From NCBI GenBank assembly GCA_027365485.1, contig DAHXNH010000224.1, forward strand, positions 1 to 34,466: a stretch of DNA of 34,466 nt. The letters are read 5' to 3'. Under the pieces are notes generated by a model, which saw only the letters and a list, made by a program, of their open reading frames with translations, ran no database searches and had not been told where the DNA came from. Source of the DNA: Clostridiales bacterium (lineage in GTDB: Bacteria > Bacillota > Sulfobacillia > Sulfobacillales > Sulfobacillaceae). Positions 27,847-34,466 of the stretch are shown in pieces (within the stretch, counting starts at the first letter, position 1; each line of letters starts with the position of its first letter). The translations under genes were made by a program, and so were the position numbers.

Positions 27847-28677
27847 ATGTTAGTTCTCAAGCTTAACCCGTACGCGTTTCATATCGGCCCAATCGGGGTG
27901 CATTGGTACGGAATTTTCATGGTGATGGCCATATTGGGCGGAGCTTGGTATTTAGTGGAACGAGGCCGTGAAATGGACCAAGATCCTGACCAATTGGCCA
28001 ACATTACGTTTTGGACGGTCATCGCTGGGGTAGTGGGGGCGCGACTAGTTTTCGTCTTGGCCAACGATCCCAATTGGATTTGGACGGACCCGGTGCAAGC
28101 GTTGAAGATTTGGGATGGTGGTCTGGCGTACGATGGCGCTGTGGGCGCGGGCGTATTGGCGCTTTGGTACCAGCTCAGAAAGACACCCTTGGTCTTCAAT
28201 CGTTTAATTGACTGGATGGTGCCCGGGATTGGGCTCGGAATTTTCATGGTGCGGATTGGCAATATCTTTAACCACGAAGTCTTGGGGCGGATGACGGAAC
28301 TGGGATTTGGTCGCTGGCCGGAACAACTGTGGGGTTCGGCGGTCGGAGTCATTTTGATTGTGCGCTACTTCTGGATTGAGCGCTACAAGGCGCCGCCGCC
28401 GGGCTATCAATTTTGGTCGGCCATGTTTTATTATGCCATCTTGCGTGGCGTCATCGGGGAGACCACCCGTGACAACCCCCTCTACTTGGTGCATTATATC
28501 AATCCCCATTGGGGCATCGGATTTTTGACCTTGATGCAGATCTTTACGCCACCTATTTTAGTGTTTACCGGATGGATGATGCGCCGGACCTGGAGACGGT
28601 CGGCCGAGATTTTAACCCCGGCCAGCACCGCCGAGGTGGGTCAGACCTCAAACCCGGGGTTGTCCCCGCAATCGTAG
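27847..28677 (+). CDS. lgt: Prolipoprotein diacylglyceryl transferase
   Basis: A 276-residue integral membrane enzyme with about seven hydrophobic segments. It transfers diacylglycerol from phosphatidylglycerol to the lipobox cysteine of prolipoproteins such as the GH18 lipoprotein in this window. Recognised by IGVHWYGIFMVMAIL, the Lgt signature MVRIGNIFNHEVLGR (conserved R, N and G) and ILRGVIGETTRDNP carrying the second essential arginine. One oddity: the WDGGxxxHGG motif reads WDGGLAYDGAVG, with aspartate where a histidine (H103 in E. coli) is normally found. GGGGGAGGGG precedes the ATG by several bases. The C-terminal tail after the last membrane helix is polar. Confidence 0.92.
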   Translation: MLVLKLNPYAFHIGPIGVHWYGIFMVMAILGGAWYLVERGREMDQDPDQLANITFWTVIAGVVGARLVFVLANDPNWIWTDPVQALKIWDGGLAYDGAVGAGVLALWYQLRKTPLVFNRLIDWMVPGIGLGIFMVRIGNIFNHEVLGRMTELGFGRWPEQLWGSAVGVILIVRYFWIERYKAPPPGYQFWSAMFYYAILRGVIGETTRDNPLYLVHYINPHWGIGFLTLMQIFTPPILVFTGWMMRRTWRRSAEILTPASTAEVGQTSNPGLSPQS

Positions 28678-28918
28678 GCGAAGGGCGGATGTTCAGGGAA
28701 GTCGTCGACCCATGGGGGCCTTGGGGGCTTTGCCTGAGATGCGAATGGACGGGTTCGGTCGCCAGTGGGATTAAGCCAACGTCTTTCGGACGCCGTAGCG
28801 GTGGGCCCAGCGCCAAAATGGGCGGTGAGGGTTTGGCGGGGTAGGCGGCTTCTAGCGCACCCGCGGACCTAAGCCCTTGGCACTAAAGAGCCTTGGCCGA
28901 AGATTGCAAGGACGGCCC

Positions 28919-28961
28919 CGGGCCCCATCGCCATCCTGAGATGGGGCCCGAGTGGGTTTTT
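28919..28961 (+). terminator. Intrinsic terminator after lgt
   Basis: CGGGCCCCATC (28919-28929) and GATGGGGCCCG (28940-28950) form an 11-bp perfect stem with a 10-nt loop, followed after AGTGGG by TTTTT. It lies about 240 bp after lgt. The stretch 28678-28918 shows no convincing gene: the open plus frame across it is a continuation of a shadow frame of lgt. The stretch 28962-29117 holds nothing clear beyond a possible moaD promoter. Confidence 0.7.
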
Positions 28962-29141
28962 AGCCAACGGTGACCGAGATGTTGGCGGTGAACCCGAATG
29001 CAATCACAAACCTACCCCGTATCGTAAAAATCCAGTAGACTGACAGTGAAGACGATGGATCGGCCGAGACTGATGTGAGTGGATTCATCTGGCTGAGCAC
29101 CGGGTTCGTCCGCGCCCGTGAGGAGGGAATTGAAAGCCATC

Positions 29142-29384
29142 ATGATCCCGATTACCGTGTTGTTTTTTTCATTTGCCCGCGAGCGGATGCACCGCGATCG
29201 TTGGTCGTTGCAGATAAAAGAAGGGACCGATATTGAGGCCCTCTATCAGGCCTATTTACAGGTGCCCCTGAATGCGCCTTTGGAGCAGTGGATGTTTAGT
29301 GTGAACCAAGCTTGGGCGCCTTTGCACCAAGTTCTCAGGGCCGGTGACGAAGTGGGCGTGATTCCGCCGGTAAGTGGAGGGTAG
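29142..29384 (+). CDS. moaD: Molybdopterin synthase small subunit
   Basis: About 80 residues with a ubiquitin-like fold: ITVLFFSFARERMHRDRWSLQI at the start, an alpha helix (IEALYQAYLQ), SVNQAWAPLHQVLRAGDEVGVIPPVSGG at the end. The C-terminal Gly-Gly, which becomes a thiocarboxylate and donates sulfur to precursor Z, is intact. Start choice is difficult: AGGAGGG (29121-29127) lies 14 nt before ATG 29142 and 2 nt before TTG 29130, and the frame is open to GTG 29118. ATG 29142 gives the usual N-terminus. moaE follows 3 bp after the stop. Confidence 0.9.
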   Translation: MIPITVLFFSFARERMHRDRWSLQIKEGTDIEALYQAYLQVPLNAPLEQWMFSVNQAWAPLHQVLRAGDEVGVIPPVSGG

Positions 29385-29387
29385 AAA

Positions 29388-29813
29388 ATGGATCGCTATC
29401 AAGTCGTGACCCGGCCCATCTCCGTGGAACGAGCCCTGAAAGATGTGTCTGACCCGGCTTGTGGAGGTGTGGTGGTGTTTTTAGGCGTGGTCCGCAACCA
29501 GTTCGAGGGGCGAGCCTCTGAGGGAATCGAGTATGAGGCGTATCAGGCAATGGCGGAGCGCGAACTTCAGCGTCTTGGAGATGACCTGAAGCGGGAGTTT
29601 AGGGTCAATCACGTAGTCATCGAACACCGCGTGGGCCGTCTCGCAGTAAGCGAGGGCAGCGTGCTGGTCGCGGTGTCTTCGCCCCATCGCGAGGCCGCGT
29701 TTGCGGCTTGTCAGGCCGGCATCGACCGTCTGAAACAAACGGTCCCGATCTGGAAAAAAGAACTATGGGCAGACGGGACCGAAGGCTGGCACGACGATCC
29801 CCGTCCGAATTAG
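29388..29813 (+). CDS. moaE: Molybdopterin synthase catalytic subunit
   Basis: A 141-residue MoaE that inserts two sulfurs into precursor Z, using MoaD thiocarboxylate, to form molybdopterin. Visible are GGVVVFLGVVRNQFEG, IEYEAYQAMAERELQRL, HRVGRLAVSEGSVLVAVSSPHREAAFAAC and the active-site lysines in VPIWKKELWADG. It overlaps the convergent DUF4129 gene by 4 bp (TTAG shared by both stop codons). No other moa, mob, mod or molybdoenzyme genes are in the window. Confidence 0.95.
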   Translation: MDRYQVVTRPISVERALKDVSDPACGGVVVFLGVVRNQFEGRASEGIEYEAYQAMAERELQRLGDDLKREFRVNHVVIEHRVGRLAVSEGSVLVAVSSPHREAAFAACQAGIDRLKQTVPIWKKELWADGTEGWHDDPRPN

Positions 29814-30955
29814 CGCGGATTGGCCTGTTTGGAACTTTGCCCGGATCGCCCCAAAATACGGGCACCTAAGTTGGGACGCTCTTCTTTAGGCCATTCAGGC
29901 CAAGTGTGACGAAGGGATTCGGCAGCTTCGCGAGTGTCGGGGCGATCCCCGTAGCGCACCTCATCATACAAGAGAAGACCCGCTTCCGGGGTCTTCTCTT
30001 GATGAGCCAGTTTGGCCCATTCCCGGAAGGTTTCCGTCTCAGCCCGGCTGTGGCCGTGTTTTCGCGCTTCTTGCAAAATATGGCGGACTTGCGTACGCAC
30101 AGGCGGCAGCGGAGAAAAGGGGTTTCTGAACCAATTGGCCGGACGCTCGATATGTTCGTGGATGATGGCCCGGTCGTCCTTTACCGCGGCCGGCGGGCGG
30201 TTCTGGCGGTTCAGGTAGCGCCATAAGAGGTATAACAAAGCGAGCGCCAAGACGATGGCTAAGCTAATCAATACCGGAGCAATCCAGTGATTAGGCCCGG
30301 TGTATTTGGCCGGATGAGGAATTTTGGGCGCCGAAATCTTGCCCACGATGCCCTTGGCCTTATTGGGCTTAGCTTTGAGTTTGGCGAAGGGGATGAGGCT
30401 TAAGAGCCAGGTGATGGGGGTGGCGATCAAATAAAATGCGGAGCGAAGGATGGATCCCCAGGGCGTCAACCAGATCAGAGCGGAAGCGGCCAGCCCGCTG
30501 ATGACGCCTATGGCCAGCAATTGCAGGGCAAAACTCCATCGTTCGAGGAGCGGTCGTTTACCGTAAGGGACCATGGCAATCAGGCTAAAACTGGCCACGA
30601 GTAGCAGGGGGATCCAGCCCCAGGCGGGTTTCACAATGAATTCGGCGATCGATCCGAGAATTCCCCAGACGAAAGGGAAGCGCATATCTAAAAAATCATT
30701 GCGAGAGAGGCTGAGCCCGCGCCAAAGTGCTACGGCCGTGACCGCCACCAATGGCAAATGAGAAAAAATGATGGGTCCAGCAAGACCGCCGGCTAAGAAC
30801 AAAATCAGCACCGCAGGAGACCATCGGCGGTAACCCAGGGCGACGTAGAGGGCCAAGGGCCAGATTACAACCGTCCAGGGCAGACCGAAGACTAAGCCGA
30901 GACCGGCCAACCAGGCACATTCGCTCAGAATTAGCCATTTTTTGGGATCATTCAC
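29810..30955 (-). CDS. DUF4129-domain membrane protein
   Basis: A 381-residue membrane protein. The first 200 residues contain about seven hydrophobic segments in pairs, followed by a Lys/Pro-rich stretch (KLKAKPNKAKGIVGK), one more strong membrane helix (IAPVLISLAIVLALALLYLL), and a cytoplasmic C-terminal domain. That domain (VRTQVRHILQEARKHGHSRAETETFREWAKLA to LLLYDEVRYGDRP) fits DUF4129, the tail typically found on transglutaminase-like TgpA proteins. No transglutaminase domain is present. The start is GTG 30955, with AAGGAAG about 8 nt upstream and an 8-bp overlap with the DUF58 stop. A much longer frame to 31138 runs antiparallel to nothing sensible and is rejected. Likely works with the DUF58 protein in envelope assembly (inference). 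Confidence 0.75.
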   Translation of the reverse strand: MNDPKKWLILSECAWLAGLGLVFGLPWTVVIWPLALYVALGYRRWSPAVLILFLAGGLAGPIIFSHLPLVAVTAVALWRGLSLSRNDFLDMRFPFVWGILGSIAEFIVKPAWGWIPLLLVASFSLIAMVPYGKRPLLERWSFALQLLAIGVISGLAASALIWLTPWGSILRSAFYLIATPITWLLSLIPFAKLKAKPNKAKGIVGKISAPKIPHPAKYTGPNHWIAPVLISLAIVLALALLYLLWRYLNRQNRPPAAVKDDRAIIHEHIERPANWFRNPFSPLPPVRTQVRHILQEARKHGHSRAETETFREWAKLAHQEKTPEAGLLLYDEVRYGDRPDTREAAESLRHTWPEWPKEERPNLGARILGRSGQSSKQANPR

Positions 30956-32228
30956 GCGACCAACTTCCTTCCTGCCAGCGCCAGATGATGCTAGCTCCCG
31001 GCACCGGGATAGTTTGTTCGTTGCCAACGGTAATCCAAATAATCTCCACGCCTCGCGCTCGCAAGGCTGCCCAATCTTGTTGGACCTCTTCTGGCCAAAT
31101 CGGCGCCACCACGACGATAAGGCCGCCGCGAACCACACGCCGCTTTAACACTAGCAGATGACGCAGCAAGTTATCCGTCATGTTGCCTGAAGGCTCGACC
31201 CAAGCCAAGGCGGTCAGCATCTGCGATCGGATATCGGATCCGTGCTTTGGCGACAGGCTCAGCCCATGCGGGTGGCCAGCCAAGATCCCACTGGTGGTCA
31301 AACCCACGTCGAGGCCTTGGGCCAACGAAGTTTCGACCACGGTGGCGGCTAGGCTGACAGATTCTTCCATCAACCCTCGATCCACTCCACTCCAGGGATG
31401 CAGCCCCGTCTGAGGATGCAAGAGCACCTCAACCGTGCGCGCCGTGAGATGCTCATCTTCTTTGACCATGAGTTGACCGGCTTGGGCAGAAGCGTGCGCA
31501 TGAATGCGCCGAATCGGATCGCCAATGCGATATGGGCGGATGCCAGCCACCAACACCGGATCGGGGGGATCCCAAGGTCTTCCCCGGCGTTCGCCCAACT
31601 CGGGATGAGCTTGCCAAAAGCCTTGAGGCAGGGTGTATCGGCGCGGCCAAATGGTCAGCCTATCATTCATATGGGTGCGGCGCACCCATTGCGACCAATT
31701 CAAGGGATCTTGGAAAATGAGGACATTGGGGCCCACTTGGAATCGACCGCGGCGCATGCCCACCAGTTGATAAGGGACCCGGAGGCGCTCTTGCCGAGTC
31801 ACGGTCAGCGCCCCCCGGACGATGCGCAGATAGCCTGACGACGTATCCGACGACGATTCGACCTGGCTGTGAAATCGAAGGGATTCGGGGACGTCGAGTT
31901 CCCAAGAAATTTCGCCAACCGGCCACGGCAATGGGTTTTCCACGATCAGTTCGGCATCCAAGGGCTCATCGATTTCGGCGGTACTGCGAGCGAACTGGTG
32001 TTTGAGGCTCAGGTGACGGAAGGTGAGCCCGGCCATCTGTTCGGCCAAAATCATCAGCATCAAGATGAAAAAACCTGCCCAGATAATAATGAAATGTTGA
32101 CTAATGACGCCTATCAACAGAACCGCGATGGCCAGCACCAGCGCTAACCGGGTATTGCCAATGCGCTGAACCTCTGAAATTGGCCGGTCATCTTTCGAAA
32201 GCGGTTTGCTGACATTCGGAGTTGCCAT
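30948..32228 (-). CDS. DUF58-domain protein
   Basis: A 426-residue protein. Two adjacent membrane helices (residues 28-65: LALVLAIAVLLIGVISQHFIIIWAGFFILMLMILAEQMAG) are followed by a beta-rich immunoglobulin-like section (about 70-200). The DUF58 core follows, with the near-invariant GIRPYRIGDPIRRIHAHASAQAGQLMVKE. The end is a von Willebrand A-like part (TVEVLLHPQTG to LIVVVAPIWPEEV) whose metal site looks degenerate. In most genomes DUF58 genes sit behind a MoxR AAA+ ATPase and before a transglutaminase gene; neither is here. AAGAAGG precedes the ATG. It is 18 bp from pncA and overlaps the DUF4129 gene by 8 bp. Confidence 0.88.
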   Translation of the reverse strand: MATPNVSKPLSKDDRPISEVQRIGNTRLALVLAIAVLLIGVISQHFIIIWAGFFILMLMILAEQMAGLTFRHLSLKHQFARSTAEIDEPLDAELIVENPLPWPVGEISWELDVPESLRFHSQVESSSDTSSGYLRIVRGALTVTRQERLRVPYQLVGMRRGRFQVGPNVLIFQDPLNWSQWVRRTHMNDRLTIWPRRYTLPQGFWQAHPELGERRGRPWDPPDPVLVAGIRPYRIGDPIRRIHAHASAQAGQLMVKEDEHLTARTVEVLLHPQTGLHPWSGVDRGLMEESVSLAATVVETSLAQGLDVGLTTSGILAGHPHGLSLSPKHGSDIRSQMLTALAWVEPSGNMTDNLLRHLLVLKRRVVRGGLIVVVAPIWPEEVQQDWAALRARGVEIIWITVGNEQTIPVPGASIIWRWQEGSWSRE

Positions 32229-32246
32229 CGGCTACCTTCTTTATGT

Positions 32247-32825
32247 TTAAGATTGAGGAGCATCATTGGTGACAAGAGCCCCATGGCTGACCATGTCGGC
32301 TATTGCCCGGCTACTGTCGCCAGGGTTCACTTCAACCCCGCGTATGCCATTTTCCAGAACGGTCACCGAGAAACCCGCACCAAGGCCATCCAATACGGTC
32401 GCACGAACGCAATAGTCGGTGGCTAACCCGCCGACGATGAGGCTTTGGACCCCACGCTGGCGAAGCCATTGGGCAAGACCTAGGCCGTGTTCATCGACGC
32501 CCTCAAAGCCGCTGTAAGCATCGCGATCCGGGTGACTGCCTTTGCGAAAGATCGCAACCGAATCCAAAATCGCTAATGCCGGGTAAAACGCCGCGCCAAC
32601 ACTTTGTTGTACGCAGTGCGGAGGCCACGGTCCACCTTGAGCGTGGAACGAACAATGATTGGCTGGATGAAAGTCTTGGGTCAAGGCAATGGGCAGACCT
32701 TGGTGCATAAAGTAGGCCAGCCAACGATTGAGCACTGGAATGATATCGTCTCCGTGAGGTACGGCGAGCGCGCCTCCAGGAAAAAAGTCGTTTTGCGCAT
32801 CCACAATAACCAGGGCTTGCCGCAT
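32247..32825 (-). CDS. pncA: Nicotinamidase (isochorismatase family)
   Basis: A 192-residue nicotinamidase that converts nicotinamide to nicotinate for NAD salvage. The catalytic triad is D9 (LVIVDAQNDFFPGGAL), K95 (IFRKGSHPDRDAYSGF) and C139 (VGGLATDYCVRAT). The metal-binding TQDFHPANHCSFHA (D51, H53, H57) is also intact. GGAGG lies upstream of the ATG at 32825; a longer frame to 32903 lies in the promoter. It is the first gene of a minus-strand operon with DUF58 and DUF4129 genes, an unusual partnership. Confidence 0.93.
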   Translation of the reverse strand: MRQALVIVDAQNDFFPGGALAVPHGDDIIPVLNRWLAYFMHQGLPIALTQDFHPANHCSFHAQGGPWPPHCVQQSVGAAFYPALAILDSVAIFRKGSHPDRDAYSGFEGVDEHGLGLAQWLRQRGVQSLIVGGLATDYCVRATVLDGLGAGFSVTVLENGIRGVEVNPGDSSRAIADMVSHGALVTNDAPQS

Positions 32826-32859
32826 GAGACTTTGCCTCCTGTCGGAATTTTTGATTTCT

Positions 32860-32903
32860 GTACTATATGTACTATATCTTAATCCTTTACCGCTATCTGA
32901 CAA
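32860..32903 (-). promoter_or_regulatory. pncA promoter with tandem GTACTATAT repeat
   Basis: On the minus strand TTGTCA (32903-32898), a 16-nt spacer and TAAGAT (32881-32876) form a plausible promoter. GTACTATAT occurs twice in tandem on the plus strand (32860-32868, 32869-32877) and covers the expected transcription start. It could be an operator; the regulator is unknown. Confidence 0.45.
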
Positions 32904-32912
32904 GGGGAACGG

Positions 32913-33104
32913 TTGATCGCCAGGAATTTATGCTCGAGATTGGGCAAAGACACCAGTGGCATCGTATCGGTGGAAAGCCGGTGGGTTGTCCCGACGATCA
33001 GATTCGCGCTCAGTCCGAGGGATGCGACGAATACGTTCGGCCGTGGTCCTCAATTCGTGACACTCTTAGAAATCCTCGGGAACGATGAGGATCAAAACCT
33101 CTAA
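32913..33104 (+). pseudogene. Possible truncated ModE-like N-terminal fragment
   Basis: A 63-residue frame from a TTG, with neighbour-like codon use. Its second half reads VVPTIRFALSPRDATNTFGR and then GPQFVTLLEILG. This loosely resembles the opening of ModE/LysR-type winged helices (F-G-x-G-x-x-x-L-L-E-x-I). The recognition helix (GS-x-x-x-A-A, S-Y-x-x-A-W) that should follow is missing; the frame ends in NDEDQNL and a stop. If real, it is a broken remnant of a molybdate regulator about 3 kb from moaDE. It may also be chance. The stretch 33105-33231 shows nothing else. Confidence 0.2.
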
Positions 33105-33272
33105 TCATCCGTGAGAAATTCTTGCCCATACGCAGGCAATCTCAAGGAAACAAGGTGGGAGGGCCTGAGAGAGGGCTCGTCATCACGATGGCGAAGGCCG
33201 TGCCGTAAAACCGTGCCTGCGACTTCGAATGGTCGGGTAGGTCGGGAGCCTTGCGGCTCCCTTCCCCCCTCA

Positions 33273-33306
33273 GAACCGGACGTGACAGTTTCCCGTCATC
33301 CGGCTC
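33273..33306 (-). ncRNA. Group II intron domain V catalytic hairpin
   Basis: Read on the minus strand this is a 34-nt hairpin. GAGCCGGATG opens, a GAAA-type tetraloop sits in the middle, and CGTCCGGTTC closes. It carries the AGC catalytic triad near the 5' side and the conserved 2-nt bulge. Length, loop and triad match the most conserved part of group II introns. Confidence 0.9.
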
Positions 33307-33324
33307 AAGCCACTCGGCAGCCTC

Positions 33325-33534
33325 CTACAACCCATGATGGTGGGGGGCAAGGATTCCCTTAGCGGGACTGCACGCCTCTGGTCGATAGCTTTGCGCCCTC
33401 GGTGAGAGACGTGGACTGGCTGCGTAGGCGAAGAGGCGAGGTGACCGTGCCATGGGACCATTTTCGGTGTGCTCAAACCCAGCACGTGGACCCGGTGGAC
33501 TCGCACAAGGCGGTTTAGTGGAAAATGGGTTCAT
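33325..33534 (-). pseudogene. Remnant of the intron-encoded protein (maturase/RT)
   Basis: An ATG at 33534 is preceded by GGAGGA and opens a 69-residue frame starting MNPFSTKPPCASPPG. It sits where the intron protein normally begins, in domain IV, but ends just before domain V with no reverse transcriptase, maturase or endonuclease motifs. I read it as the 5' part of the protein gene fused to noncoding 3' sequence after an internal deletion. Confidence 0.5.
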
Positions 33535-34337
33535 CACAGGTCCTCCTCTCCTAGCACTGCGACCTCGTTCCTCGCTGACTGACCGCGGGTAAGTCAGCAC
33601 GCTTTCGCGTCGGAACAGCGCCCTGCTTTGCCGAACGGTTCCTATCCCCTCGATTACCGAGAGGCCTTCGCTTCGTACCTAATCCGTTACCTCCTCAGGA
33701 TTGTATCGGGCTTACGACCGACCTACTGCCCAATCGGCAGACCTGATGAGGCTTACCATGTTGCGCCCAGAGTCCTTTCGTGAAGTGTTTAGGTGGCCCA
33801 TTTCCTTGCGGTAGCCAACAGAATGGTGGACGAACGAGGTCAGAGCGTTCGTTCCGGCTACGTGCCTTTTGGCTCAAGCGTGTCAAAGTGGTTTCGCTTG
33901 TTCGTGGTCACGCGGTTTATCTGAGCTTTGCCTGACTCACCATGCACTTTCGGCCTGAATACACTTTTTCAGGACGCGGATACATTGTTCCGTGGGCTTC
34001 ACAAGGCCTCGTTGCCAACGCCCCATGCCACGGTAGGCCCGCGCTCACCATTCAGAGCGGGTGGATTCTAACCACATGACTCTGAGCACCCTCGTGTCGC
34101 AGTTGACCCTTTGTTTTGGTGAGTTTCCATGCATCCGGGGCGTGCCATCGGCGCCGCTGCATGCGATAAGACCCTTGTTGCAGCCATCTCGGGCAATCCC
34201 GCGGCAGCCATGACCTCTTGGTCGGTCTTGATGGGCCCGTAGTCGGCTGCCGTTCAGTGTGGACGTCTCTTAGATCGACGTGCCATTCTCCCTTCATGCA
34301 TCCCCAGATCAGTCAGGTTGTAGGGATGAGTCTCCAC

Positions 34338-34355
34338 TGGCTTACTTTACGTAAG
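34338..34355 (-). repeat. Small stem-loop next to the intron 5' splice site
   Basis: On the minus strand GCTTAC-GTAAA-GTAAGC gives a 6-bp stem with a 5-nt loop, 2 nt before the proposed intron start. Some bacterial group II introns (class C) insert just downstream of such stem-loops, which supports the boundary. Confidence 0.45.
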
Positions 34356-34404
34356 CATCTTTCCTTTGAGTAAATTCGCCGATCCGACCGATTTTGCGTT
34401 GGAC

Positions 34405-34445
34405 ATTTGTATGACATGGCATCACTGATGACATGTCATACAAAT
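34405..34445. repeat. 41-bp near-perfect palindrome
   Basis: Left arm ATTTGTATGACATGGCATCA (34405-34424), one central base, and a right arm (34426-34445) that is its reverse complement except for one position. AGGAGG follows at 34453-34458, so a plus-strand gene probably starts at or just past the window edge. This palindrome would then lie in its control region. A regulator operator is the likeliest reading; the end of a mobile element is an alternative. Confidence 0.7.
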
Positions 34446-34466
34446 AGGATTCAGGAGGCTGATTAG

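Follow-up and report, generated by a model that had tools for sequence, protein, structure and literature searches.

A group II intron without its own reverse transcriptase gene belongs to a multicopy family in Bacillota that is probably mobilized in trans

Loss of the reverse transcriptase (RT) gene from a group II intron could mean that the intron depends on a maturase supplied in trans or that it is a dying copy. Both options were left standing by a preliminary description of the 34,466-nt stretch of DNA considered here (the window), which is contig C27 of genome G000 (4.93 Mb, 440 contigs). The element near the end of this window is a group II intron lacking its own RT gene, located at 34102-33232 on the minus strand (871 nt) and containing domains I to VI. 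Domains V and VI, which had been recognized by inspection of the letters, were confirmed by a match to Rfam model RF00029 at 33232-33308(-) with 69.1 bits (E = 8.9e-12), above the cut-off. A domain I block at 33913-34061(-) matched RF02012 (group-II-D1D4-7) with 46.8 bits, above the curated cut-off for that model.

The ends of this complete RT-less intron, both of which are C (first base 34102, last base 33232), were assigned from the Rfam matches, the boundaries common to the copies, the EBS1-IBS1 register and the start rule of an outer intron. A 5′ end at 34337 had been proposed, which was wrong by 235 nt. In nearly all G000 copies, the common sequence begins only at TGCGAC, corresponding to position 34101 of the window copy, and homology of the 5′ exon to moeA reaches to about 34108. 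In sister loci where the RT-less family is carried by an outer intron, the uninterrupted copy of the latter starts one base before TGCG, following the same rule. Position 34102 was taken as +1 because IBS1 (34108-34103) directly abuts this base. The 5′ helix of the preliminary description is situated outside the intron, within either the moeA fragment or a dispersed repeat of 172 bp (34295-34466, minus strand). About nine other places in G000 contain this repeat, which has an internal palindrome (tttgtatgacatgtcat...).

When compared with a GUGYG-or-variant 5′ end, the family exhibited T or G at +1 followed by TGCG or TGTG, while the window copy reads CTGCG; the 3′ end of this copy, GAC, fits AY. 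The first and penultimate bases (columns 1 and 904 of alignment A1) seemed to covary in part of the family, with G accompanied by A and T by G; exceptions were the copies on contigs C51 and C296, and the window copy has C with A.

A single common fold spanning domains I to VI, with 198 pairs, was derived for a set of nine RT-less copies. In the alignment of these nine copies, 95.9% of 1,769 cells were paired versus about 35 to 42% when partners were slid by one to three columns, a control that keeps relatedness but is biased towards a structure built from that very alignment. Double-sided (compensatory) changes were present in 74 of the 198 pairs relative to 50.3 in shuffles, a control that ignores relatedness. 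The preliminary description had left the folding of domains I to III and the existence of relatives to be checked; these domains do fold, and relatives with compensatory changes were found.

In the window copy, where all of the intron features are on the minus strand, the covarying consensus structure placed domain I at 33757-34096 (also with RF02012), domain II at 33689-33752 and domain III at 33586-33681. Domain IV was placed at 33308-33584 by comparison of copies and the consensus structure, and domains V and VI at 33273-33306 and 33235-33269, respectively, by RF00029 and the consensus structure. The branch-point A that had been noted was located at 33238, unpaired in helix 33. An internal deletion sparing the ribozyme core had also been described, a view that stands for domain V, which is intact, but not for domain I, where a conserved helix has lost its 3′ arm through a deletion of 11 nt at about 33979-33957.

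Domain IV is the region from which the RT gene was deleted. As first described, the intron protein is cut to about 69 residues: a 69-codon remnant at 33534-33325(-) matched, in a comparison made by eye, the N-terminal and C-terminal ends of an RT joined together. A coding role for this remnant was rejected as the frame is not conserved, being broken by indels in other copies. A domain IVa stem (33489-33543, helix 30), which is also found in RT-encoding Alicyclobacillus introns, contains the ribosome-binding site of the lost RT and its start codon. Four of the eight pairs of helix 30 were changed on both sides in the 9-copy alignment. In the window copy and its close sisters, this stem was absent when the stretch was folded alone to minimum energy, and for these copies it rests on the alignment. 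Based on knowledge of other group II introns, domain IVa is presumed to be the maturase binding site.

A scan of the 5′ exons of 24 copies against the intron columns detected two strong signals, both involving loops of domain I. Exon positions −7 to −2 from TGCG pair with one loop (IBS1-EBS1) and positions −15 to −9 with another (IBS2-EBS2). In the window copy, EBS1 (CTGACC, 33838-33843) occupies the loop of the domain I stem at 33854-33828 and forms five of six possible pairs with IBS1 (GGTCAA, 34103-34108) in the 5′ exon. Six RT-less copies of the genus exhibited 30 of 36 EBS1-IBS1 pairs compared to 12.9 at random flank positions (P < 5e-5). When all 14 copies of the genus and family were considered, EBS1 significantly preferred the copy's own site over sister sites; among the RT-less copies of the genus alone, this preference was not clear (P = 0.058, n = 7) because most of these seven have one common EBS1. 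Pairing of EBS2 with IBS2 was not significant among the RT-less copies of the genus alone; it occurs in other copies and is not universal in the family.

The family is represented in G000 by at least 19 five-prime ends. Long RT-less copies were found on C27, C51, C296 and C407, the last being without a normal domain VI. The full-length RT-less copies have one common domain IV, which was also seen in another species of the genus, represented by genome G001. Identical 127-nt 3′ ends were attached to different 3′ exons in two pairs of copies (C27 and G001:C199; C51 and G001:C220), and sequence comparisons such as these suggest that the family has been mobile until recently, if not to the present. 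Two further copies, on C230 (L013) and C117 (L020), break off at nearly one point of domain I, in its EBS2 region (query positions 191 and 188), with unrelated sequence beyond. No match to the domain I pattern was found in viral contigs.

A tree of domains I to III contained one RT-less clade from the source genus, covering two species (support 98/99), and another from Alicyclobacillus and allied MAGs, covering at least five Alicyclobacillus genomes (support 97/98). The C51 copy sat apart from both clades, and the well-supported branches of this tree require at least two changes of RT state. The Alicyclobacillus-type RT-less copies were 758 to 764 nt throughout and showed 85 to 100% end-to-end identity across five genomes. 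Copies of this size were present in A. fastidiosus (chromosome and plasmid), A. ferrooxydans, A. mengziensis, strain ALC3, MAG WH4.bin32 and a plasmid of A. dauci.

The window copy exhibited the most damage among the nine copies of the structure set, with 18 of 198 pairs broken or missing compared to 2 to 15 in the other eight. At the EBS2 position (ACCACG, 33903-33908), none of six pairs could be formed with the exon, which reads as decay of this copy and not as evidence against a group II identity. The 5′ exon is provided by a moeA pseudogene fragment at 34108-34317(+) that encodes residues 266 to 337 with two stops (55.6% over 72 residues, 2e-18). As the intron is antisense in this pseudogene, no gene requires its removal. 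The domain I arm deletion, the C at +1, the absent EBS2-IBS2 pairing, the broken pairs and the antisense pseudogene site suggest that the window copy is weak or dead, efficient splicing and mobility having probably been lost. Both options of the preliminary description can be retained at different levels, the family being best read as a trans-dependent and spreading lineage and this copy, which has several defects and a site serving no gene, as a probably dying one. A 5.2-kb segment of the window (27900-33090) was 95.9% identical to G001:C63; this synteny ends at 33090, 141 nt beyond the 3′ end of the intron, and no exact empty site for the window copy was found.

The broken pairs, C at +1 and absent EBS2-IBS2 pairing of the window copy, and the abnormal domain VI of C407, are in keeping with a view of every RT-less copy as the dead descendant of an RT-encoding intron whose gene was lost after insertion. 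Such ordinary decay is nevertheless an unlikely explanation for the family. One deletion is common to copies at different sites in two species, the RT-less copies group in supported clades, compensatory change maintains their structure and the fits to IBS1 are strong. The uniform length and end-to-end identity of the Alicyclobacillus-type copies of five genomes also argue against independent decay after insertion.

A maturase encoded elsewhere had been suggested as one option at the outset, and pieces of a related RT gene were detected in G000. On contig C6, an RT N-terminus (RVT_N, 4e-10) follows a copy of the same intron and the contig ends after it, while C163 starts with an RT C-terminus just ahead of domain V (24 residues, 5e-7, against a degraded RT in genome G002). 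These ends are on different contigs and may derive from different or broken copies. No intact RT of the family was found in the G000 or G001 assemblies, and the single RT of the family found in G001 carries stop codons. As at least 12 contigs of G000 end inside an intron of the RT-less family, further copies and an intact RT may be hidden in this genome. Full-length RTs of the lineage were present in A. fastidiosus, alongside RT-less copies, and in A. ferrooxydans and A. herbarius. The A. ferrooxydans protein has 610 aa with RVT_N, RVT_1 and GIIM domains and, in a comparison restricted to this relative's RT and to solved structures, the nearest PDB entry was 6me0 at 1.7e-119, with the next at 2.7e-40. 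We take 6me0 to be the TeI4h maturase of Thermosynechococcus elongatus, whose introns are of the chloroplast-like (IIB) lineage, to which the A. ferrooxydans RT may also belong.

The lack of an intact cognate RT in both assemblies is in keeping with a second alternative, namely, that the RT-less introns self-splice in the manner of C.te.I1 and moved only while an RT existed in the past. We consider this to be very improbable, as RT ends of the same lineage occur in G000, full-length RTs accompany RT-less copies in A. fastidiosus and domain IVa is conserved. It is equally improbable that RTs from other classes of intron serve the RT-less copies: such RTs do occur in G000 (C117, D1D4-6 class; C422, D1D4-2 class) and relaxed maturase specificity is known in T. 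elongatus (PMC2882425), but both G000 proteins are truncated or incomplete and the same genome contains a cognate RT lineage.

The reading that we favor, and with considerable confidence, is that these elements constitute a non-autonomous group II intron family spliced and mobilized in trans with an RT supplied by sister introns, in the manner of T. elongatus. It is built on the boundaries, structure, copy number, common deletion, RT pieces and EBS-IBS pairing, and extends by inference to splicing, RT action in trans and the role of domain IVa. In this model, an ancestor whose domain IV encoded an RT/maturase would have undergone an internal deletion that removed nearly the whole gene but left the ribozyme in place, together with the domain IVa stem enclosing the former start codon. 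Sister introns of the same genome would provide the RT that splices the resulting RNA and copies it to new sites. New sites would be picked through pairing of EBS1 (and EBS2) with DNA, several copies landing within a group II-like intron.

Several copies of the RT-less family do sit within another group II-like intron. Insertions about 50 nt into this second multicopy group II-like family were observed at L004 (1117-1167), L036, L037, L039 and L183, and empty copies at L185, L192 and L194; intron-in-intron arrangements recur in two species. The outer element matched RF02012 below the cut-off only. A putative "5′-extended intron" subfamily with 51 additional nucleotides and an altered 5′ splice site (C296, C172, C85, C432 and C326) was rejected, the extension being the start of the outer group II-like intron. 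Nested introns were also observed at two A. ferrooxydans loci (L104 and L163), where an intron of the same lineage interrupts domain I of a sister intron at TGCATGGTGAA.

In T. elongatus, mobility assays demonstrated that RT-less TeI3 introns are moved in trans by TeI4 RTs (PMC2882425). Similarly to TeI3, the family described here is multicopy, has an RT gene deleted from domain IV with the start region kept, exhibits diverged EBS sequences with good IBS fits and has other group II introns among its insertion sites. The same genome likewise encodes a related RT, here seen only as gene ends, and the RT of a relative, A. ferrooxydans, is closest among solved structures to the 6me0 maturase. The two cases differ in that T. 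elongatus is a cyanobacterium while the hosts here are Bacillota, that mobility was assayed in the former and is only deduced here and that the RT-less clades described here span several species. The family is a further instance of an already known arrangement. It resembles the group-II-D1D4-7 introns in its domain I block, although the RF02012 model covers only part of the intron and RT loss is outside its scope. C.te.I1 of Clostridium tetani is another RT-less bacterial group II intron, reported to be self-splicing (PMC3919590, PMC4424553); its genome has no related RT, unlike G000 with its same-lineage RT ends.

A 2015 review described bacterial RT-less group II introns as rare and usually accompanied by a related RT, with mobility being lost in introns without their protein (PMC4424553), and 888 of 13,041 bacterial introns were RT-less in a 2022 survey (PMC8919778). 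Among the papers covered by full-text searches that combined group II introns with Alicyclobacillus or Sulfobacillus, none dealt with the family described here. With T. elongatus as the worked example of RT-less spread in trans, these introns would represent a second, apparently independent case, in another phylum and with at least two origins, species-crossing clades and insertion into other introns. It is conceivable, and we propose this tentatively, that the RT-less introns of these Bacillota, instead of being transient relics, are persistent non-autonomous retroelement lineages, similar to SINEs, which pass from one species to another, reach plasmids and rely on whichever related RT is available in the host. 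The family offers natural material for testing how reduced introns can multiply with the help of a common splicing enzyme, which has been proposed as a stage on the way to spliceosomal introns.
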